DNA from: Aromatoleum petrolei
GTDB lineage: Bacteria; Pseudomonadota; Gammaproteobacteria; Burkholderiales; Rhodocyclaceae
NCBI RefSeq assembly: GCF_017894385.1
Contig: NZ_CP059560.1
Location: forward strand, 4,844,501 to 4,908,500
Length of the DNA stretch: 64,000 bases
Direction of reading: 5' to 3'
Part shown: one piece after another, positions 5,714 to 15,124 of the stretch
Layout of the letters: the number at the start of each line of letters is the position of its first letter
How positions within the stretch are numbered: the stretch's first letter is position 1
The notes under the pieces: generated by a model
The model's input: only the letters and a program-made list of their open reading frames with translations
Databases searched by the model: none
What the model was told of the DNA's origin: nothing
Position numbers and translations under genes: made by a program

Positions 5714-8700
5714 TCAGGCCCTCACGGCGTCCAGCAGCTCCCGGACGCCCTGCACGCGCTGCTTGAGGTTCGGCAGGCTCGCCTTGCGGATCAGGCGGTC
5801 GGGGCCGGACATCTTCGTGCTGCGATCCTTCTGGATCAGCATGATGACCTTGACCGGGTCGATCGGCGGGTTGGGGCCGAACTGCACGCTGATCTGCGCG
5901 TCGCTGGCGTCGAGCTTCGCGACACCGAAAGGCTTCACCAGCAGGCGCAGTCGGTGCGATTCGATCAGGGCCTGCGTCTGTGGCGGGAGCTCGCCAAAGC
6001 GGTCGATCAGCTCTTCCTGCAGGCTGCGCAGTTCGTCTTCCGCTTCGCAGTTCGCGAGTCGCTTGTAGAGCGTCAGGCGCTCCTGCACGTCGGGGCAGTA
6101 GTCATTGGGCAGCAGCGCGGGCGTGTGGAGGTTGATCTCGGAGACGACTTCCAATGGCTGGCTGAGGTCCGGTTCCTTGCCGGCCTGCAGGTCGCGCACG
6201 GCACGCTTGAGCATCTCGGTGTACAGGCTGAAACCCACCTGCTGGATCTCGCCGGACTGGTTTTCACCTAGCACCTCGCCCGCGCCGCGGATCTCCAGAT
6301 CGTGCATTGCGAGGTAGAAACCGGAACCCAGCTCCTCCATCATCGTGATCGCCTCGAGGCGCTTCTGCGCCTGCGTTGTCGGCTTCGCATGTGCGTCGGT
6401 CAACAGGTACGCGTAGGCCTGGTGGTGGCTGCGCCCGACGCGGCCACGCAGCTGGTGCAGCTGCGCGAGGCCGAAGCGGTCGGCGCGGTTGATGATGATG
6501 GTGTTGGCGGTCGGGATGTTGATGCCGGTTTCGATGATGGTCGTGCAAAGCAGCAGGTTGGCGCGCTGCGAGGTGAAGTCGCGCATCACACGCTCGAGCT
6601 CGCGCTCGGGTAGCTGGCCATGGCCGACGACGATGCGCGCTTCGGGCAAGAGCTCCGCCAGGTCGTTGCGCACGTTCTCGATGGTCTCGACCTCGTTGTG
6701 CAGGAAGTACACCTGTCCGCCACGCTTGAACTCGCGCAGCACCGCCTCGCGGACGATGCCCTTGCTCCAGCGCTGCACGAAGGTCTTGATCGCGAGCCGC
6801 TTCTGCGGCGCGGTCGCGATAACCGAGAACTCGCGCAGCCCTTCGAGCGCGAGGCCCAGCGTGCGCGGGATCGGCGTCGCGGTGAGCGTCAGGATGTCGA
6901 TCTCGCTCCGGAGTGCCTTCAGCGCCTCCTTCTGGCGCACGCCGAAGCGGTGCTCCTCGTCGATGATGACGAGGCCCAGGCGCTTGAACTGCACGTCCTT
7001 CTGCAGCAGGCGATGGGTGCCGATGATGATGTCCACCTTGCCTTCGCCGAGCTGCTTGAGGGCTTCGGTCTGTTCCTTGGCGCTCTTGAAGCGCGACAGC
7101 TCGGCGATGCGGATGGGGAAATCGGCGAAGCGATCGGAGAAGGTCTGGTAGTGCTGCTCGGCCAGCAGCGTGGTCGGCGTCAGCACGACGACCTGCTTGC
7201 CGTCGGCCACGGCGATGAAGGCCGCGCGCAGGGCGACTTCGGTCTTGCCGAAGCCGACGTCGCCGCACACGAGGCGGTCCATCGGGCGGCCGGACTTCAT
7301 GTCGGCGATGACGGCGTCGATCGCGCCCTGTTGGTCGGGCGTGGTCTCGAAGCCGAAGCCTTCGGCGAATGCGTCGAGGTCGTGCTGCTTGAAGTCGAAG
7401 CGATGGCCGGCGCGGGCCGCGCGTTGTGCGTACAGGGCCAGCAACTCGGCCGCGGTGTCGCGCACCTGCATGGCGGCCTTGCGCTTGGCCTTGTCCCACT
7501 GGCCGGAGCCGAGGCGGTGCAGTTCGACCGCCTCCGGGTCGGCGCCGGCGTAGCGCGAGATCACGTGCAGCTGCGCGACCGGCACATAGAGCTTGTCGCC
7601 GTTGGCGTACTCCAGGTCGAGGAATTCGGTCTGCCCCTCGCCGAGGTCCATGTGGATCAGGCCGAGGTAGCGGCCGATGCCGTGCGATTCATGCACGACG
7701 GGGTCGCCCGGTCTGAGCTCGGAGAGGTCGCGCAGCCAGCCCTCCATCGTCGCGGCCTTGCGCGCGTCGCGGCGGGCGCGCGTGCGTGTGGTCGCGGCGT
7801 ACAGCTCGGATTCGGTGACGATCGCGATCTTCGCGTCGGGCAGCAGGAAGCCGGTCGCGAGCGGGCCGACTCCCAGCGCGAGCGACTCGGCCGACGCGAG
7901 AAAGCCCGCGAAGTCCGCGCTTGCGGCAGGCTTCAGGCCGTACTCGGCGAAGAACTCCGAGATCGTCTCGCGCCGGCCCGGCGCGTCGGCCAGCACCAGC
8001 ACCCGACCGCCGCTCCCGGCCCAGTCGCCTTCGAGGAAAGCCTTGAGGCGGTGCAGCGGATCGGTCGCCTTGCGCTCCACGGACAAGTCGGGAAGCGCCG
8101 CCGCCGCGGCGGCTTCGGCGCCGGCATCGGGCGCGGCGATTTGGACGCGCGGGCGATCCTTGAGCGCGGCGTAGAAGGATTCCTGCCCGAGGAACAGCGC
8201 TTCGGGCGGCAGCACCGGGCGAGTGCGGTCGCCCTTGAGGAAGTCGTAGCGCGAGCGCGTGTCGCGCCAGAACTCGTCGATCGCGGTGGGAACGTCGCGG
8301 TGCAGGACCACCGCGGCATCGGCCGGCAGGTAGTCGAACAGCGTCGCCGTGTCGTCGAAGAACAGCGGCAGGAAGTACTCGATGCCCGCCGGCGCGATGC
8401 CGTTCGACACGTCCTTGTACAGCGACACGCGCGAAGGGTCGCCCTCGAAGGTCTCGCGGAAGCGGCTGCGGAAGTGCGTGCGTCCCTTCTCGTCCATCGG
8501 GAATTCGCGTGCGGGCAGCATGCGGATCTCGGGCACCGGGTAGACGGTGCGCTGAGTGTCCGGATCGAAGGTCTTGATGCTCTCGACCTCGTCGTCGAAG
8601 AGGTCGATGCGGAAGGGCAGGGCCGCGCCCATCGGGTAGAGGTCGACGAGCCCGCCGCGCACGGAGAACTCACCGGGGCTGACGACCTGCGTGACGTGGG

Positions 8701-9172
8701 TGTAGCCGGCGACCGCCATCTGGTTGCGCAGTTGGTCGACGTCGAGCTTCGCACCCTGCTTCAGGAAGAAGGTGTAGGCCGCGAGGAAGGCAGGCGGCGC
8801 CATGCGGTACAGCGCCGTGGAGGCGGGCACGAGGACGATGTCGGCCTCGCCGCGGCTCACCGCGTAGAGGGTCGACAGCCGCTCGGAGATCAGGTCCTGG
8901 TGCGGCGAGAAGCTCTCGTACGGGAGGGTTTCCCAGTCGGGCAAGAGGTGGGTGCGCAGGCCCGGCGCGATCCAGGCGATCTCGTCCTGCAGCCGCTGGG
9001 CGTCGAGCGGGTTGGCCGTGACCAGCAGCAGGCAGCGCCCGCGGGAGGCGAGCTGCGCGATGGCGACCGCATCGGCGGAGCCGGCGAGTGCTGGGAGGTC
9101 AAGGCGTGCGCCAGGTTTCGGAAAGGCGAATGAGGCGAGCTGCGGAATCAGGGCGTCGAGCGGTCGGGACAT
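5714..9172 (-). CDS. mfd: Transcription-repair coupling factor Mfd
   Basis: A 1152-residue ATP-dependent DNA translocase that removes RNA polymerase stalled at lesions and recruits UvrA. Seen in order: the UvrB-like N-terminal region (PLLVTANPLDAQR-type start and the DWETLPYESFSPHQDL stretch), the RNA polymerase interaction domain (HESHGIGRYLGL and LEYANGDKLYVPV, about residues 500-545), Walker A GDVGFGKTE near residue 637, the DEEH box (IDEEHRFGV) near 735, helicase motif VI region QLRGRVGRS, and the C-terminal TRCF domain. Length is the family norm. Transcribed alone or with the downstream sqr region separated by 315 bases. Confidence 0.97.
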   Translation of the reverse strand: MSRPLDALIPQLASFAFPKPGARLDLPALAGSADAVAIAQLASRGRCLLLVTANPLDAQRLQDEIAWIAPGLRTHLLPDWETLPYESFSPHQDLISERLSTLYAVSRGEADIVLVPASTALYRMAPPAFLAAYTFFLKQGAKLDVDQLRNQMAVAGYTHVTQVVSPGEFSVRGGLVDLYPMGAALPFRIDLFDDEVESIKTFDPDTQRTVYPVPEIRMLPAREFPMDEKGRTHFRSRFRETFEGDPSRVSLYKDVSNGIAPAGIEYFLPLFFDDTATLFDYLPADAAVVLHRDVPTAIDEFWRDTRSRYDFLKGDRTRPVLPPEALFLGQESFYAALKDRPRVQIAAPDAGAEAAAAAALPDLSVERKATDPLHRLKAFLEGDWAGSGGRVLVLADAPGRRETISEFFAEYGLKPAASADFAGFLASAESLALGVGPLATGFLLPDAKIAIVTESELYAATTRTRARRDARKAATMEGWLRDLSELRPGDPVVHESHGIGRYLGLIHMDLGEGQTEFLDLEYANGDKLYVPVAQLHVISRYAGADPEAVELHRLGSGQWDKAKRKAAMQVRDTAAELLALYAQRAARAGHRFDFKQHDLDAFAEGFGFETTPDQQGAIDAVIADMKSGRPMDRLVCGDVGFGKTEVALRAAFIAVADGKQVVVLTPTTLLAEQHYQTFSDRFADFPIRIAELSRFKSAKEQTEALKQLGEGKVDIIIGTHRLLQKDVQFKRLGLVIIDEEHRFGVRQKEALKALRSEIDILTLTATPIPRTLGLALEGLREFSVIATAPQKRLAIKTFVQRWSKGIVREAVLREFKRGGQVYFLHNEVETIENVRNDLAELLPEARIVVGHGQLPERELERVMRDFTSQRANLLLCTTIIETGINIPTANTIIINRADRFGLAQLHQLRGRVGRSHHQAYAYLLTDAHAKPTTQAQKRLEAITMMEELGSGFYLAMHDLEIRGAGEVLGENQSGEIQQVGFSLYTEMLKRAVRDLQAGKEPDLSQPLEVVSEINLHTPALLPNDYCPDVQERLTLYKRLANCEAEDELRSLQEELIDRFGELPPQTQALIESHRLRLLVKPFGVAKLDASDAQISVQFGPNPPIDPVKVIMLIQKDRSTKMSGPDRLIRKASLPNLKQRVQGVRELLDAVRA

Positions 9173-9230: not shown

Positions 9231-9968
9231 TTATAGGGGATGCGACGACGCGGATTGGTCTGCCGTTCCGCACGATGCCGTTCCAGCGGCGGTGCCGTCG
9301 TGAATGCGTTGCTCGACCGGGCCGGGCGCGGGTAGTTTCTCCCGCAGCCAGTCGGCCGCGAGTTCGCCGAAGCGTTCGATGGCTTCCGGTTCGCGGAATC
9401 CGTCCGACACCCCCGCGATCACGTGCCAGTCGTGCGCGCAGCGCAGGTGTTCGACGGCCTGACGGATCATGTCGGCCTGCGGGTCGTCGCTGCCCACCAC
9501 CATGCGCAGCGGCACGGTGAGTGTGTTGAGCGGCGTCAGGCCGGCGAGATCGGGCCGCCCGGCGCGGCACACGATCGCCGCGAGTCGGTCGGCAGCCTTC
9601 CATCCAGCACGAATCGCTGCCCCGCTTGCGGTGTCCGAGGCGACCAGTCCCACCCCCAGTCCGGCGAGCGGCGGCTGATGGTCGATCCATTCGAGCACGG
9701 CCACCACCCGGTTCGCCATCTGCGGCACGTTGAAGCGGGCGTCCGGGTCGCGCGTTTCCTCGTAGGCGGTGAGCAGGTTGATGAGCAGGGTCGCAAAACC
9801 GGCTCGCTGCAGCTCGCGCGCCACGCGCAGGTCGCGCGACTGCGCGAACGGGCTGCCGGCCGGTCGCAGCACGACCGCGAGGCCGGCCACGTCGGGCGCA
9901 TGGACCAGTTCGCCGCTGAGCCAGATGTGCTCGAAGGGGATGCTGATGTCAGTGGTTCGCAGTTTCAC
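9231..9968 (-). CDS. Alpha/beta-hydrolase-like protein, last gene of the AmmeMemoRadiSam cluster
   Basis: A 245-residue protein resembling dienelactone-hydrolase-like proteins: the N-terminal LSGELVHAPDVAGLAVVLRP strand region, the helix ARELQRAGFATLLINLLT, and a C-terminal helix FGELAADWLREKL. The expected nucleophile elbow is blurred (VASDTASGAA) and the place where relatives carry the catalytic His reads SDGFREPEA, so the triad may be lost. Start GTG 9968 (VKLRTTDISI) is chosen because it lies 17 bases after the radical SAM stop; a longer frame would run into that gene. Probably cotranscribed with the three upstream genes. Activity unknown. Confidence 0.68.
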   Translation of the reverse strand: MKLRTTDISIPFEHIWLSGELVHAPDVAGLAVVLRPAGSPFAQSRDLRVARELQRAGFATLLINLLTAYEETRDPDARFNVPQMANRVVAVLEWIDHQPPLAGLGVGLVASDTASGAAIRAGWKAADRLAAIVCRAGRPDLAGLTPLNTLTVPLRMVVGSDDPQADMIRQAVEHLRCAHDWHVIAGVSDGFREPEAIERFGELAADWLREKLPAPGPVEQRIHDGTAAGTASCGTADQSASSHPL

Positions 9969-9985
9969 GGTCGGGCGAGTCCGGA

Positions 9986-11077
9986 TCAGGTTCTGGCGGG
10001 GGTGGCGGGCTGGCGATGGATGGCGACCGGAATGCGGCGCGAACCGAAGGGCGTTGAATAGTGACCGAAGCGGCCCGCGAGTGCCGTGCCGCACTTGCGG
10101 CAGGCGCCCTTGTCGTCGAGGGCGTAATCGAGGATCTCGTACCAGTCGCGCTCGATGACCGCCGCGCCGCAGTGCGTGCAGTGCGTGACGCCGCCTTCGC
10201 GGTCATGCACGTTGCCGGTGTAGACGTGCTTCAGCCCCTCCGCGAGCGCGATGCGGCGGGCGCGTGTCAGCGTCGCAGGCGGGGTGGGCGGAATGTCGGT
10301 GAGCTTGTAGTCGGGATGGAAGGCGGAAAAATGCAGCGGTACTTCACTGCCCAGCTCCTTCGCGACCCACTGCGACAGCGCGCGAATCTCGTCTTCCGAG
10401 TCGTTGAGCCCCGGAATCAGCAGCGTCGTGATCTCCACCCAGACATCGCTGTCGTGCACCAGCCACTTGAGCGTGTCGAGCACCGGCTGCAGATGTGCGC
10501 CGCACTCCTTGACGTAGAAATCGTCCGTGAAGGCCTTGAGGTCGACGTTGGCGGCGTCCATGTGGGCGTAGAAATCGGGCCGCGCGAGTTCGGTGATGTA
10601 GCCTGCGGTGACGGCGACGGTCTTTAGCCCGAGTTCGTGGCACGCCTTGGCGGTGTCGATCGCGTATTCGGCAAAGATCACCGGGTCGTTGTAGGTGAAG
10701 GCAACGCTGGCGCAGCCCCAGTCAGCGGCCGTGCGGGCAATTTCCTCGGGCGAGGCCGCGTCCATCAACTGGTCCATATCGCGCGACTTGGAGATGTCCC
10801 AGTTCTGGCAGAACTTGCACGCGAGGTTGCAGCCGGCCGTCCCGAACGAGAAGACGCTCGTGCCGGGGTAGAAGTGGTTGAGCGGTTTCTTCTCGATTGG
10901 ATCGATGCAGAAGCCGGAACTCCTGCCGTAGGTCGTGAGGACGATCGCGTCGCCCTCGCGCATGCGGACGAAGCAGGCGCCGCGCTGGTCGGCATGCAGC
11001 CGGCAGTAACGCGGACACAGGTCGCACTGGATGCGGCCGTCGTCAAGCAGATGCCAGTAGCGTCCAGGGTAGTTCAT
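9986..11077 (-). CDS. amrS: AmmeMemoRadiSam system radical SAM enzyme
   Basis: A 363-residue radical SAM protein with the 4Fe-4S motif CxxxCxxC at Cys83, Cys87 and Cys90 (GCNLACKFCQNW). Extra cysteine pairs occur at both ends: Cys18/21/25/35 near the N-terminus and two CxxC pairs in the last 80 residues (CTHCG, CRKCG) that look like a zinc ribbon. The family is related to pyruvate-formate-lyase activators and always travels with AMMECR1 and MEMO homologues; its substrate is unknown. The ATG starts one base after the stop of the AMMECR1 gene, which shows a shared transcript. Confidence 0.9.
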   Translation of the reverse strand: MNYPGRYWHLLDDGRIQCDLCPRYCRLHADQRGACFVRMREGDAIVLTTYGRSSGFCIDPIEKKPLNHFYPGTSVFSFGTAGCNLACKFCQNWDISKSRDMDQLMDAASPEEIARTAADWGCASVAFTYNDPVIFAEYAIDTAKACHELGLKTVAVTAGYITELARPDFYAHMDAANVDLKAFTDDFYVKECGAHLQPVLDTLKWLVHDSDVWVEITTLLIPGLNDSEDEIRALSQWVAKELGSEVPLHFSAFHPDYKLTDIPPTPPATLTRARRIALAEGLKHVYTGNVHDREGGVTHCTHCGAAVIERDWYEILDYALDDKGACRKCGTALAGRFGHYSTPFGSRRIPVAIHRQPATPART

Positions 11078-11078
11078 C

Positions 11079-11636
11079 TCACCGCTCCTTCCACTTGCGC
11101 ACCGTGTAGGTCGCCGCCATCAGGTTCGGCGCGGGGCGATCCGGTGCAAGGCCGGCCTTCTGCTTGAGTGCCGCGAGGAACATCTGTGGTTCCGGGAGCT
11201 GCTCCCATACCTGCGGCAGGAAGGTCGCGCTGCGACAGCCGGAAAACAGCAAAACCCCATCGACGCCGGGACGCAGCTTGCCCATCAGGTCGCTCTCGTC
11301 GGCGAACTCGACGAACTCGGGCGACGACAGGAGCGAAACCTCGATGTCGACCTTGTCGAGCTCGTCGCGCGACATCGGCGGGAATCGCGGATCCCGCGTC
11401 GCGGCGCCTACCGCATTGATTACGACATCTTCGCCCAGCGATCGTTGCGCGCGCACGCTGCCGATGCAGCCGCGCAAATCGCCTCCGCGCTTGATCGTCA
11501 CGAAGGTTGCCCCTCTTTCCCCCAGCCGCGGGTCGCCGTTGGGGGGGCACCTTTCGGCACCAAGTTCGTGCGCGATCGCGTGACGCGCACGCGCGAGCAG
11601 GATCTGGCCGAGTTCAGTGTCGGGCGGAAGCGGCAT
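11079..11636 (-). CDS. amrA: AMMECR1 homologue (AmmeMemoRadiSam system protein A)
   Basis: A 185-residue AMMECR1-domain protein. The family hallmark LRGCIG is at residues 54-59 (GGDLRGCIGSV), followed by the conserved DPRFPPMS region and the EVSLLSSPEFVEF strand. The human homologue is linked to a contiguous-gene syndrome but its biochemistry is unsettled. Start ATG 11636 gives the normal length and overlaps the end of the MEMO gene by 23 bases; longer in-frame starts would lie entirely inside that gene. The stop is one base before the radical SAM start. Confidence 0.9.
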   Translation of the reverse strand: MPLPPDTELGQILLARARHAIAHELGAERCPPNGDPRLGERGATFVTIKRGGDLRGCIGSVRAQRSLGEDVVINAVGAATRDPRFPPMSRDELDKVDIEVSLLSSPEFVEFADESDLMGKLRPGVDGVLLFSGCRSATFLPQVWEQLPEPQMFLAALKQKAGLAPDRPAPNLMAATYTVRKWKER

Positions 11637-12441
11637 GGCTGGATGATTCGCAAAAGGCGATGCTGGTGTAACCGACCACGCGCGATCGATCACCCGCCGT
11701 GTCGCCGGAGTTGCGCAGGTCGAGGAGGTGCGGTTCCACACCGTGACGAGCCGCGACACGCAGCAGGCCGTTGATCGGTGTCGCGCCGCACGCCTGTTCG
11801 TGGTCGAGGCCCGTGCGCAGCTTGAGGATCTGGTCGACCGAACTGCGATCGGTGCAGCAGGCTTGCGCATAGGGCTGATAGTGCGACAGGTCCGAGCTGA
11901 TGACGATCAGCGTTTCCGGCCCGCCCCACAGCGCGTCAAGGATCTCCGCCACCTGTTCGCCGCTGGCGCCGCCCACCAGCAGGGGAACGATCTCGAAGGC
12001 GTCGAGGATGGTTTGCAGGAAGGGGAGCTGGACTTCCAGACAGTGCTCCAGCGCATGCGGGCGGTCGTCGACGACGACATCGGCGCGCTGCTGCAGGGCG
12101 AGCCAGTCGGTGCGGCTGACCGGCACCGAGCCGAGCGGCGTGGAAAACACCTGCGCGGCCGGCAGTGCGAAGGATGCGACCGGCACGCGGTGGGCCGGCC
12201 CCAGCATCACCACGCGACGCACCACGTCGCGCAGTCCCGCCGCCACCGAGTAGGCGCTGGCTGCAACGGGACCGGAATAGACGTATCCGGCATGGGGCAC
12301 GATGAGTGCCTTCGGTGTGGACACCGCTTCCAGCGGGACGGCGGTGGATAGCATTTCGCCGATCTGGGCCTGCAGCACGTGTGGATCGTCGGGATAGAAG
12401 TAACCGGCGACCGCAGCGGGGCGAATGGAGGCAGTGGCCAT
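11614..12441 (-). CDS. amrB: MEMO1 homologue (AmmeMemoRadiSam system protein B)
   Basis: A 275-residue MEMO-family protein with a fold related to extradiol dioxygenases. Residues matching the metal/active-site set of human MEMO1 (His49, His81, Cys244) can be placed at His50 (VPHAGYVYSG), His84 (LGPAHRV) and Cys218 (EQACGATPIN). The conserved LEVQLPFLQ and SSDLSHY segments are also present. Start ATG 12441 follows an AAGGA site and gives the family length; the longer open frame upstream is Arg-rich and runs antisense to the next gene. It is the first gene of the cluster. Confidence 0.9.
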   Translation of the reverse strand: MATASIRPAAVAGYFYPDDPHVLQAQIGEMLSTAVPLEAVSTPKALIVPHAGYVYSGPVAASAYSVAAGLRDVVRRVVMLGPAHRVPVASFALPAAQVFSTPLGSVPVSRTDWLALQQRADVVVDDRPHALEHCLEVQLPFLQTILDAFEIVPLLVGGASGEQVAEILDALWGGPETLIVISSDLSHYQPYAQACCTDRSSVDQILKLRTGLDHEQACGATPINGLLRVAARHGVEPHLLDLRNSGDTAGDRSRVVGYTSIAFCESSSHAASARH

Positions 12442-12500: not shown

Positions 12501-13772
12501 TTATAGGCTGCCCGGAAACATTGCGAGCCAGGCGATTCCGCCGCCCAGGCCGGCCGCGACCGCGCCCATGCCGCCGAGAATCTTCATCCCCAGCGGCCGC
12601 CCGCCCACCACGACGGCAATGCCGGTCTTGAACACGAGGTTGGCGATCATCGCCAGGCCGATGGCGATCACCGTGACGTCGAGCGCAAGTTTGCCGAGGT
12701 TGAAGAGGCGCATGCTCGATAGCGCGATGGCATCCAAGTCGGTGAGACCCGACACCAGCGCGAGGGCGTACATCCCCTGCTTGCCCGTGATCTCCGAGAG
12801 CCAGGCGGAGATGAACAGGACGACGGCGTACACCGCGCCGAAGCCGAGCGCGGCGCGCAGTTCGGTCGGGTTGCGCGTCTCCGGCATGAAGGCCTGGCCG
12901 CTCGTCTGTTCGCGCCAATACCAGAACAGGCTGAGTGCGCCGAGGAGCAGGGCAGGGGTGATCGCCAGCGCCAGCGACTTCATCACACCCGGAGCCACCA
13001 CCGCGGCGATCATCACGACGCGGGCCATCATCACCAGATTCGCGAGCACGATGACGAGCGCCGCCATCGGTGCGGAGGGCGGGGTTTCACGCGCATTGCG
13101 CGCATAGATCAGCGTCGTGGCGGTGCTCGATGCGAGACCGCCGGCGATGCCGACGAAGGCCGCGCCGTAGCGCGCACCCACCAGGCGCAGCGTCGCGTAG
13201 CCGGCGAGGCTCAGGCCCGAGATCAGCACCACCATCCACCACACCTGGCGGGGGTTCACGGCGTTGTACGGGTCGAAAGTCTCGTCCGGGAGGAAGGGTA
13301 GGATGACCAGCGACAGGACGGCGAACTGGAAGATCGAGATCCATTCCTTTGCCTCGAGCCGCGTCGCCACGCCTCGCAGTTCGGTCTTGAAGTAAAGCAG
13401 GATGGTCGTCGCCACCGACAGGATCACCGCCACCATCGCATGCCCGAGCCAGACGGCGACACCCAGGCAGTAGCACACCAGCAGCGCGGCCACTGAGGTC
13501 GTTCCCGGATCGACCGGGTCGGGGTGGCGTAGGTAGGCGGCGATGATCATCGCGCCGATGATCGCCATGCCGACGACGACCGGCGCGATGGAGGCGAGGT
13601 GGTCGCCGAGCATGCCGGCCAGCGCGCCCAGCAGTCCGACGAGACCGAAGGTGCGTACGCCGGCCCGCGCAGATGCGACGCGTTCGCGTTCGAAGCCGAT
13701 CAGCAGACCGATGCCGATCGCGATCAGAAAGGCCTCGATCTGCGCGAGATCGACCGGTTTGGCAAAAGGCAC
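12501..13772 (-). CDS. MgtC/SapB family membrane protein with DUF4010 domain
   Basis: A 423-residue integral membrane protein. The N-terminal part has the MgtC/SapB signature (IGIGLLIGFERER, then AGVRTFGLVGLLGALAG, about residues 15-60), and the C-terminal half is a DUF4010-type block of further helices ending in several Gly-rich segments. About a dozen membrane helices are visible. Function is unknown; MgtC proteins affect growth at low Mg2+ and ATP homeostasis. Start GTG 13772 is preferred because AAAGGAGAG sits 6 bases upstream; an ATG at 13793 would put that site inside the gene. Divergent from ispD. Confidence 0.8.
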   Translation of the reverse strand: MPFAKPVDLAQIEAFLIAIGIGLLIGFERERVASARAGVRTFGLVGLLGALAGMLGDHLASIAPVVVGMAIIGAMIIAAYLRHPDPVDPGTTSVAALLVCYCLGVAVWLGHAMVAVILSVATTILLYFKTELRGVATRLEAKEWISIFQFAVLSLVILPFLPDETFDPYNAVNPRQVWWMVVLISGLSLAGYATLRLVGARYGAAFVGIAGGLASSTATTLIYARNARETPPSAPMAALVIVLANLVMMARVVMIAAVVAPGVMKSLALAITPALLLGALSLFWYWREQTSGQAFMPETRNPTELRAALGFGAVYAVVLFISAWLSEITGKQGMYALALVSGLTDLDAIALSSMRLFNLGKLALDVTVIAIGLAMIANLVFKTGIAVVVGGRPLGMKILGGMGAVAAGLGGGIAWLAMFPGSL

Positions 13773-13920
13773 CTGGGCTCTCCTTTCGCACATTCCGTGC
13801 GGGTTCAGGGGGCGGCCGCGTCTTTCGTTACATATTGCCACTGTATTCCAATCGCAGCCGGCACGCACGCGGCGGGCGGAGTTTCGCCGGGTGCGGCGCG
13901 GCGCGGTTAGAATCCGCGCC

Positions 13921-14625
13921 ATGCAGAAATTTCATCCACGCCATTTCGCGATCGTCCCGGCTGCCGGCAGCGGCAGCCGCATGGGCGCATCGCAGCCAAA
14001 GCAGTACCTCGAGCTGCTCGGCAAGCCGCTTATTCGCCATTCGCTCGAAGTGCTGTGCGCGACGCCTCAGATCGACAAGGTCTTCGTCGTGCTGTCGGTG
14101 GGCGACGCGGAATGGAAGCGCCACGACTGGTCCGACCTCGACCCAAAGCTGGTGCCGTTGTTCTGCGGCGGCGCCACGCGCGCAGACAGCGTCCTCGGCG
14201 GTTTGCGCGCAATCGTGCGCGAGGCGGAGCAGTCGGACTGGGTGCTCGTGCACGATGCCGCGCGCCCCTGTCTCGCCCGCTGGCACATCGAAAAGCTCAT
14301 CCGCGAACTGGCGCACGACGAGGTCGGCGGCATCCTTGCGGTTCCCGTCGCCGACACGCTAAAACGTGCGGATGCCCACCGCCACGTACTCGAGACCGTG
14401 CCGCGCGACAGCCTGTGGCAGGCCCAGACTCCACAGATGTTCCGCTACGTGATGCTGCGACGGGCGTTGGAGGCCGCGAGCAACGTCACCGACGAGGCGA
14501 GCGCGATCGAGGCCGCTGGCCTGCGCCCGCGGCTGATCGAGGGCGACGCCACCAATCTCAAGGTCACCTATCCGCTCGACCTGCACCTGGCCGAGTGGAT
14601 CCTCACGAACAGGGATTCACGCTGA
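13921..14625 (+). CDS. ispD: 2-C-methyl-D-erythritol 4-phosphate cytidylyltransferase IspD
   Basis: A 234-residue cytidylyltransferase of the non-mevalonate isoprenoid pathway that makes CDP-methylerythritol from MEP and CTP. The nucleotide-binding loop [10 protein letters not shown] is at residues 13-22, followed by [19 protein letters not shown] and the DEASAIE segment near residue 195. Length matches the family. The ATG at 13921 is the first Met with family similarity. It is 1 base upstream of ispF, the usual ispDF pairing, and divergent from the DUF4010 gene over a 148-base promoter region. Confidence 0.96.
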
Positions 14626-14626
14626 C

Positions 14627-15124
14627 ATGAAAGTACCTTTCCGCATCGGCCAGGGCTTCGACGTGCATGCCCTGGTGCCGGGACGCCCGCTCATCGTGGG
14701 CGGCGTCACGATTCCCTACGAGCGCGGATTGCTTGGCCATTCCGACGCCGACGTGCTGCTGCATGCGCTGACCGATGCGTTGCTCGGTGCGGCCGGCCTG
14801 GGCGACATCGGGCGCCTGTTCCCCGATACCGACCCGCAGCACGCCGGCGCGGATAGCCGCGTGCTGCTGCGCGAGGCTTTTGCCGTCGTGCGCAAGGCCG
14901 GTTACGCGGTCGTCAACGTCGATGCCACGGTGATCTGCCGCGCGCCGCGGATCCTGCCCCATGCCCCGGCGATGGTCGCGAACATTGCCGCTGATCTGGG
15001 AATCGAGGATGCAGCGGTGAACATCAAGGGCAAGACCACCGAGAAGCTCGGCTTTACCGGACGCGGCGAGGGCATCGCCGCCCAGGTCGTGGCGCTGCTC
15101 GTGCGGGATGACGCGGCCGGCTGA
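14627..15124 (+). CDS. ispF: 2-C-methyl-D-erythritol 2,4-cyclodiphosphate synthase IspF
   Basis: A 165-residue enzyme that cyclises CDP-ME 2-phosphate to MEcPP and releases CMP. Zinc ligands correspond to Asp12 and His14 (GFDVHAL) and His46 (DVLLHAL). The conserved LGHSDAD and [12 protein letters not shown] segments and the C-terminal [16 protein letters not shown] follow. Length is normal. It starts one base after ispD and its last 17 bases overlap the next gene, so the three genes are probably one operon. Confidence 0.97.

Follow-up and report, generated by a model that had tools for sequence, protein, structure and literature searches.

What does a gene for a hydrolase-like protein that appears to have lost its active site do beside the AmmeMemoRadiSam genes, and does it say anything about the chemistry of that system? 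The question is raised by a four-gene cluster in the window, i.e., the whole stretch of 64,000 nucleotides of Aromatoleum petrolei DNA analysed here. MEMO1 and AMMECR1, two of the three proteins of the set, are also found in humans, and we know of no reaction for the set that they form with a radical SAM enzyme. The primary molecular function of MEMO1 was still called unknown in 2024 (PMC11081632), and the genes of the trio are named amrA, amrB and amrS in PMC9062700. A hydrolase linked to the trio was not reported among the matches listed from the open-licence PMC literature.

The cluster and its three conserved proteins

The trio and the fourth gene all lie on the minus strand, where they were first read, and the coordinates bear out both the gene set and the spacing of the original prediction. 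The cluster and its flanking genes are as follows.

12501..13922, minus strand: MgtC/DUF4010 protein (PF13194 1.7e-60, PF02308 9.3e-21), 59 bases upstream of the MEMO1 gene
11614-12441, minus strand: MEMO1 homologue (AmmeMemoRadiSam protein B), 275 aa
11079-11636, minus strand: AMMECR1 homologue (AmmeMemoRadiSam protein A), 185 aa; 23-base overlap with the MEMO1 gene
9986-11077, minus strand: AmmeMemoRadiSam radical SAM enzyme, 363 aa; 1-base gap to the AMMECR1 gene
9231-9968, minus strand: fourth gene, dienelactone-hydrolase-like, 245 aa, GTG start; 17-base gap after the radical SAM gene
5714..9172, minus strand: mfd (TIGR00580 over cut-off, TRCF domain), 58 bases downstream of the fourth gene

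The start of the fourth gene at 9968 agrees with its homologues, many of which have MKLR as N-terminus. This spacing suggests that the four genes form one transcript. The scan for terminator-like sites returned four, against a shuffle mean of 4.2, with none in any gene junction, and promoter-like sites numbered zero in the cluster scan against a shuffle mean of 0.6. In the window, the ispD and ispF genes, recognised by Pfam, are oriented divergently from the cluster.

The three conserved genes make up an ordinary AmmeMemoRadiSam set, each of the three curated families being matched over its cut-off in one tight cluster. The MEMO1 homologue matches TIGR04336 at 5.2e-77 (258.7 bits, cut-off 26) and PF01875 at 1e-46; its residues H50, H84 and C218 align with the metal ligands of the human protein—H49, H81 and C244 in PMC11081632—and these metal-site residues are invariant across 13 aligned rows. 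The AMMECR1 homologue matches TIGR04335 at 9.4e-53 (178.2 bits, cut-off 99) and PF01871 at 5.5e-43, with 1wsc, 1zq7 and 1vaj as solved relatives. The radical SAM enzyme matches TIGR04337 at 2e-191 (635.4 bits, cut-off 220), and its closest solved chain is the pyruvate formate-lyase 1-activating enzyme 3c8f (1e-8). The extra cysteine clusters predicted for this enzyme are present, with four residues on each side of the CxxxCxxC motif (C83/C87/C90): C18, C21, C25 and C35 towards the N-terminus, and C300, C303, C326 and C329 towards the C-terminus.

A hydrolase fold without its triad

AlphaFold2 predicts an alpha/beta-hydrolase fold for the fourth protein (pLDDT 92.3, pTM 0.86). Its best Foldseek match is 2o2g (E 6.5e-19, rmsd 1.6, 217 alignment columns, 33% identity), a dienelactone hydrolase that is also the closest solved relative of the protein and is matched at 9.6e-46 by a profile built from 30 relatives. 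The protein has no match in NCBIfam at E 0.1 and a single sub-threshold match in Pfam (0.12). In the triad columns, Asp112 occupies the Ser position, Asp189 the His position and Asp162 the acid position. Since the Ser and His positions of this hydrolase-fold protein are both Asp, the claim that it had lost the catalytic His and a clean nucleophile is right. Judged by its residues, the window protein is a triad-less relative of the 2O2G family, not an active member. Four other residues, W16, D74, D76 and Q98, are invariant in the window's subgroup (30 rows, compared with 66 mostly active rows) and are not kept in more distant degenerate copies, e.g., L081-L083.

Linkage to the radical SAM gene

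Within the window's family, 113 genomes have the radical SAM gene, and in 61 of them a homologue of the fourth gene follows it directly; within the order, the count is 42 of 118 genomes (12 families; 0-230 bases between match ends). Both counts include the window's own locus and are lower bounds from scoring part of the first-look candidates. A fourth gene that recurs in this position in related genomes, the neighbourhood check set by the original prediction, is not a chance neighbour. Elsewhere in the class, same-strand adjacency was seen in 0 of 93 sampled genomes with a radical SAM gene, a comparison made by eye between two tables in which most pairs lie on different contigs. The trio thus manages without the fourth gene.

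No adjacent copy is present in 52 of the 113 family genomes, two of which (G037 and G041) have a homologue 4.5-5.7 kb downstream. Twenty of these 52 loci were read and contained no homologue in any frame; the control for this search was found in 40 of 40 cases, partly with sequences used to build the profile. One of the 52, from a genome of the same genus, has by eye a C-terminal remnant only, between the radical SAM gene and mfd. Five family genomes (G013, G051, G057, G059 and G075) have a degenerate copy but no trio: neither MEMO1 nor AMMECR1 is matched, and no radical SAM gene reaches the cut-off; in a further genome, G109, the degenerate copy and the radical SAM gene are on different contigs. 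As the five trio-less genomes keep the copy, and one pair of them, G013/G075, is constrained (dN 0.100, dS 1.04), the protein seems to act without the trio. The fourth gene is not an obligate AmmeMemoRadiSam component. The original interpretation is thus partly supported: the linkage recurs, but these genomes speak against a strict partnership, and the role first suggested for the protein, as a substrate-binding or maturation partner, is a putative one.

These observations also bear on a different explanation, namely that the gene is part of the ispDF-mfd neighbourhood, has a function independent of the trio and adjoins it because the whole stretch is inherited together. In the family, the surroundings of the radical SAM gene were retrieved for 60 loci, of which 46 have ispD/F and 29 have mfd in view; all five trio-less genomes have ispD or ispF in the same 13-kb stretch as the degenerate copy, two of them also mfd; and the G013/G075 pair is under constraint. 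However, 11 of the 20 loci read outside the window's family but within its order have neither ispD/F nor mfd in view, so that a shared place beside mfd does not by itself account for the link. The short gaps moreover recur across 12 families, and in one near case from another order (G522) the genes for MEMO1, AMMECR1 and an intact hydrolase share a strand but are arranged differently. We regard this explanation as unlikely, though deserving of serious consideration.

For the Memo superfamily, Burroughs is said to have suggested isoprenoid or base modification in 2019. An isoprenoid link was considered and rejected: ispD and ispF are nearby, but around MEMO1 genes of one archaeal phylum (30 loci, 1.5 kb flanks, 66 of 78 flanking frames scanned) 61 families matched, and the 25 of these that were listed include no isoprenoid family. 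MEMO1 was found in 28 of the 29 genomes of that phylum.

Intact and degenerate copies

In the order's other families, the trio-adjacent copy mostly retains Ser and His, as it does at 19 of the 20 loci that were read; Nitrosomonas, Methylophilaceae, Herminiimonas and Gallionella are groups with such a copy beside the trio. In the window's family, both residues are gone, by alignment, from 49 of the 53 adjacent copies read, the Ser position of the degenerate copies being mostly Gly (32) or Asp (9), and four adjacent copies retain them. The degenerate partner of the original prediction is thus true of most of the window's family but does not hold for the order at large. As the neighbour is mostly intact in other families, the clue that it offers is probably a hydrolase that later lost catalysis, and the window's family offers, at a single locus, a natural gradation between intact and triad-less proteins.

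The dN/dS of the window copy against its nearest relative is 0.14; over 13 degenerate pairs it ranges from 0.10 to 0.53, against 0.15 and 0.25 for two control pairs of intact copies, all of them point values with several dS near saturation. On the strength of these low ratios, the degenerate copies are judged to be under purifying selection. A quick tree of 138 rows places 56 degenerate rows to one side of a starred branch. Held-together trees scored above it, and by the AU test neither a tree uniting all linked rows in one clade (p 0.644) nor one uniting all triad-lacking rows (p 0.915) was rejected.

What the fourth gene may do

We lean towards the view that a once trio-linked hydrolase has been repurposed non-catalytically and is kept under purifying selection in the window's family. 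Its ancestor would have been a serine hydrolase with intact catalysis, of the dienelactone-hydrolase-like 2O2G type, which became linked to the AmmeMemoRadiSam trio within the window's order. In other families, the intact copy may hydrolyse an ester, thioester or lactone that comes from, or is left over by, the trio reaction. Linked copies in the window's family have mostly lost the nucleophile and His with the fold kept, and may now bind a ligand or regulate without catalysis, the trio being no longer strictly needed. A neighbour that recurs and whose active site can be recognised would narrow the chemistry of the trio to something hydrolysable. A more specific version seems rather doubtful to us: the compound or modification made by the trio would contain an ester, thioester or lactone open to hydrolysis, perhaps through an oxidative opening of a ring by MEMO1; the hydrolase would resolve it in the order's other families, and the triad-less copy of the window's family would have become its sensor or carrier. 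If true, the intact hydrolases would provide a direct handle on the product of a system that shares two proteins with humans.

Ring opening can also be considered by itself. MEMO1 is related to the class III extradiol dioxygenases, and in the meta-cleavage pathways of aromatic degradation a dioxygenase step is followed by an alpha/beta-hydrolase. By analogy, the radical SAM enzyme would prepare a substrate whose ring MEMO1 opens, and the hydrolase would cleave the product, a hydrolysis later dropped in the window's family. The neighbour is indeed a dienelactone-hydrolase relative, the metal-site residues of MEMO1 do not vary among the aligned rows, and the iron coordination of human MEMO1 resembles that of extradiol dioxygenases; in the same paper (PMC11081632), however, the third ligand is Cys and not Glu and the human protein is without detected dioxygenase activity, and the hydrolase is adjacent in none of the 93 other class genomes with a radical SAM gene. 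We consider this scheme improbable. That the degenerate copies are pseudogenes being lost, as the same-genus remnant and the 52 genomes with no adjacent copy might indicate, is very improbable, mainly because of the dN/dS values and because each of the 49 degenerate copies beside the trio has an open frame, 195-257 residues long (frames collected from 150 residues upwards), and the confidently predicted fold also argues against it.

Comparison with known systems

Three known systems come closest to this locus. The window trio is like the AmmeMemoRadiSam system, with all three families matched and tightly clustered; that system consists of the trio, whereas the window and many relatives in its order add a hydrolase-like gene, an adjacency seen in 0 of the 93 genomes sampled elsewhere in the class. 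With the 2O2G dienelactone-hydrolase-like family, the window protein shares the fold, the GRPDLAG motif and the acid residue, but where that family has a Ser-Asp-His triad the window protein has D112/D162/D189. The few intact relatives examined that are not linked to the trio either have other neighbours or carry a fused erythromycin-esterase domain. Finally, alpha/beta-hydrolase pseudoenzymes likewise keep the fold after catalysis is lost, as exemplified by the gibberellin receptor GID1, in which the hydrolase fold is used for binding; GID1 chains turn up as weak matches, and the kinship claimed is one of fold.

The four-gene cluster

The AmmeMemoRadiSam trio (MEMO1-family, AMMECR1-family and radical SAM genes) and a fourth gene were found on the minus strand at 9231-12441 of the window, with the coordinates and spacing of the original prediction.

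11614-12441, minus strand, MEMO1-family gene (TIGR04336 over cut-off)
11079-11636, minus strand, AMMECR1-family gene (TIGR04335 over cut-off)
9986-11077, minus strand, radical SAM gene (TIGR04337 over cut-off)
9231-9968, minus strand, fourth gene (GTG start)
58 bases downstream of the fourth gene, minus strand, mfd
59 bases upstream of the cluster, minus strand, MgtC/DUF4010 gene
13543-15124, divergent from the cluster, ispD and ispF

The MEMO1 and AMMECR1 genes share a 23-base overlap, a gap of 1 base separates AMMECR1 from the radical SAM gene, and 17 bases lie between the latter and the fourth gene. IspD and ispF belong to the non-mevalonate isoprenoid route; outside the window's family they were also observed near the trio, at 7 of 20 loci. 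The predicted extra cysteine clusters of the radical SAM enzyme are present as four residues before (C18, C21, C25, C35) and four after (C300, C303, C326, C329) the C83/C87/C90 cysteines. The metal site is kept in the window's MEMO1 protein, whose H50, H84 and C218 align with H49, H81 and C244, the metal ligands of the human protein (PMC11081632).

Two full-length AmmeMemoRadiSam radical SAM genes per genome were observed in G062 (contigs C40 and C2) and in G117 (both on C58). At archaeal loci such as L281, L284 and L296, the MEMO1 match lies inside an open frame of ~460-540 residues, a length that leaves room for fusion to another domain, possibly AMMECR1.

A degenerate dienelactone-hydrolase-like protein

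NCBIfam yielded nothing for the fourth protein at E 0.1, and its one Pfam match was below threshold; a profile built from 30 relatives matched the dienelactone hydrolase 2o2g at 9.6e-46. The same structure was the top Foldseek match (E 6.5e-19, rmsd 1.6, 33% identity) of a model computed from 66 aligned sequences (mean pLDDT 92.3, pTM 0.86). In the alignment of 66, D112 occupies the column of the catalytic serine (Ser in 60/66 rows), D189 that of the histidine (His in 61/66 rows), and D162 is the acid position; together with the fold, these replacements bear out the earlier description of the protein as a degenerate hydrolase.

Selection on the degenerate form was estimated by the Nei-Gojobori method. 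Between the window and its nearest relative dN/dS was 0.14 (dN 0.056, dS 0.39), and over 13 degenerate pairs it ranged from 0.10 to 0.53, the ratios being rough in several pairs with dS near or above 1; two intact control pairs, with both Ser and His, gave 0.15 and 0.25. In the window's subgroup (30 rows), W16, D74, D76 and Q98 are invariant, and their columns are neither invariant nor nearly so in the mostly active set; the four are not shared by more distant degenerate copies (e.g. L081-L083).

Recurrence beside the trio

Among 150 genomes of the window's family, Rhodocyclaceae, where the window's nearest named relatives in the tree were Aromatoleum and Thauera, 113 carried a radical SAM gene over the cut-off and 82 a fourth-protein homologue at E 0.001, homologue counts being lower bounds throughout as only part of the first-look candidates was scored per genome. 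In 61 of these genomes, the window's own included, a homologue immediately follows the radical SAM gene in the same orientation, with 9-333 bases between match ends. The order sample (Burkholderiales, 300 genomes) yielded 118 genomes with the radical SAM gene over the cut-off and 76 with a homologue at E 0.001; in the comparison, restricted to rows above ~40 bits (65 genomes), adjacency was found in 42 genomes of 12 families, again counting the window's own. The fourth gene thus recurs beside the trio in related genomes and is a real companion of the trio in one order. Within the class sample (185 genomes; radical SAM gene over cut-off in 94, homologue in 26), comparison of the two match tables revealed same-strand adjacency in none of the 93 radical-SAM genomes besides the window's. 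In G522, MEMO1, AMMECR1 and an intact hydrolase share one strand and the radical SAM gene is divergent. The phylum sample gave a match in 39/249 genomes. The loci read were the 14 strongest, each from a different genome, with 16 weaker ones (L316-L331) set aside; apart from the window's own, none of them (13 loci) had a trio gene within 1.5-kb flanks. A scan of named genomes with one GRPDLAG-like pattern gave at least 579 relatives; among the 80 best, a trio gene is in view at 20 loci, including Aromatoleum anaerobium, two Thauera, Nitrosomonas, Nitrosovibrio, Methylophilaceae, Sulfuricella, Gallionella and Herminiimonas.

Intact and degenerate copies

Triad state was scored by alignment in 53 of the 61 adjacent Rhodocyclaceae copies: 49 lack both Ser and His and four (G010, G064, G073, G121) retain both. 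Outside Rhodocyclaceae, 20 of the 39 adjacent copies were scored: 19 have both residues and L266 has neither. Because Ser and His are present in 19/20 copies elsewhere and gone in 49/53 within Rhodocyclaceae, the degenerate state looks derived and mainly a feature of this family. Non-adjacent Rhodocyclaceae copies (n=19) comprise 10 intact ones, eight without both residues and one (G037) without Ser only. At the 20 named loci, Ser is gone in L141-L145 and present in the other 15, L160 among them by alignment; L144 retains His.

The four intact adjacent copies lie at L039, L040 and L044 (G121, G073 and G010) and L034 (G064). Since a quick tree places three of the four close to another genus's non-adjacent copies, the place at the locus may have been refilled. 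The few intact relatives examined away from the trio have varied neighbours, among them gamma-glutamyltranspeptidase, NorB, an ABC protein and, for L073, a phosphoribosyltransferase. Two of these relatives, from named genomes, carry a fused erythromycin-esterase domain (PF05139; L158 7905-9938 and L206 705-2711).

Partnership or inheritance of the locus

Several genomes depart from a strict partnership. In eight (G013, G042, G051, G057, G059, G075, G098, G147) neither MEMO1 and AMMECR1 nor a radical SAM gene over the cut-off was found, G075 having a weak radical SAM match. Five of them (G013, G051, G057, G059, G075) retain a degenerate homologue, and the stretch that holds it also contains ispD or ispF in all five and mfd in two; the G013/G075 pair has dN 0.100 and dS 1.04. 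No adjacent copy was found in 52 of the 113 Rhodocyclaceae genomes with a radical SAM gene: in G037 and G041 a copy lies 4.5-5.7 kb downstream, and none of the 20 loci read among the 52 holds a homologue in any frame. G109 carries its degenerate copy and radical SAM gene on different contigs, and G100, of the window's own genus, has the trio but a fourth gene reduced to a C-terminal remnant, seen by eye with the radical SAM gene on one side and mfd on the other (L078 5625-5830). In Thauera linaloolentis and in G093 it is the radical SAM gene that gave no match: MEMO1, AMMECR1 and the fourth gene stand together with none between them (L142 6624-8540 and L080 6621-9895, respectively), and no radical SAM gene of the AmmeMemoRadiSam type was found elsewhere in either genome, that of G093 being 52% complete.

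Since ispD/F is in view at 46/60 and mfd at 29/60 of the Rhodocyclaceae loci anchored on the radical SAM gene, inheritance of the ispD/F-mfd stretch as a block could explain much of the linkage in this family. However, at 11 of 20 loci of other families neither is in view and the hydrolase still stands directly behind the radical SAM gene. We read the hydrolase as having been linked to the trio and as having later become independent in the window's family; a single clade of all linked rows is neither rejected nor demonstrated by the tree (AU p 0.644).

Elsewhere in the order, the hydrolase would act on an ester, thioester or lactone tied to the trio's product, and its descendant in the window's family might bind that compound or one related to it, or have a regulatory role, without cleavage. 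A ring-opening sequence, in which MEMO1 as a relative of dioxygenases would work with the hydrolase, is a long shot because no dioxygenase activity has been seen for human MEMO1 (PMC11081632). The trio is an already known system and the literature matches listed contained no description of the fourth gene beside it; to this system, the intact hydrolase form in the order adds a usable clue.
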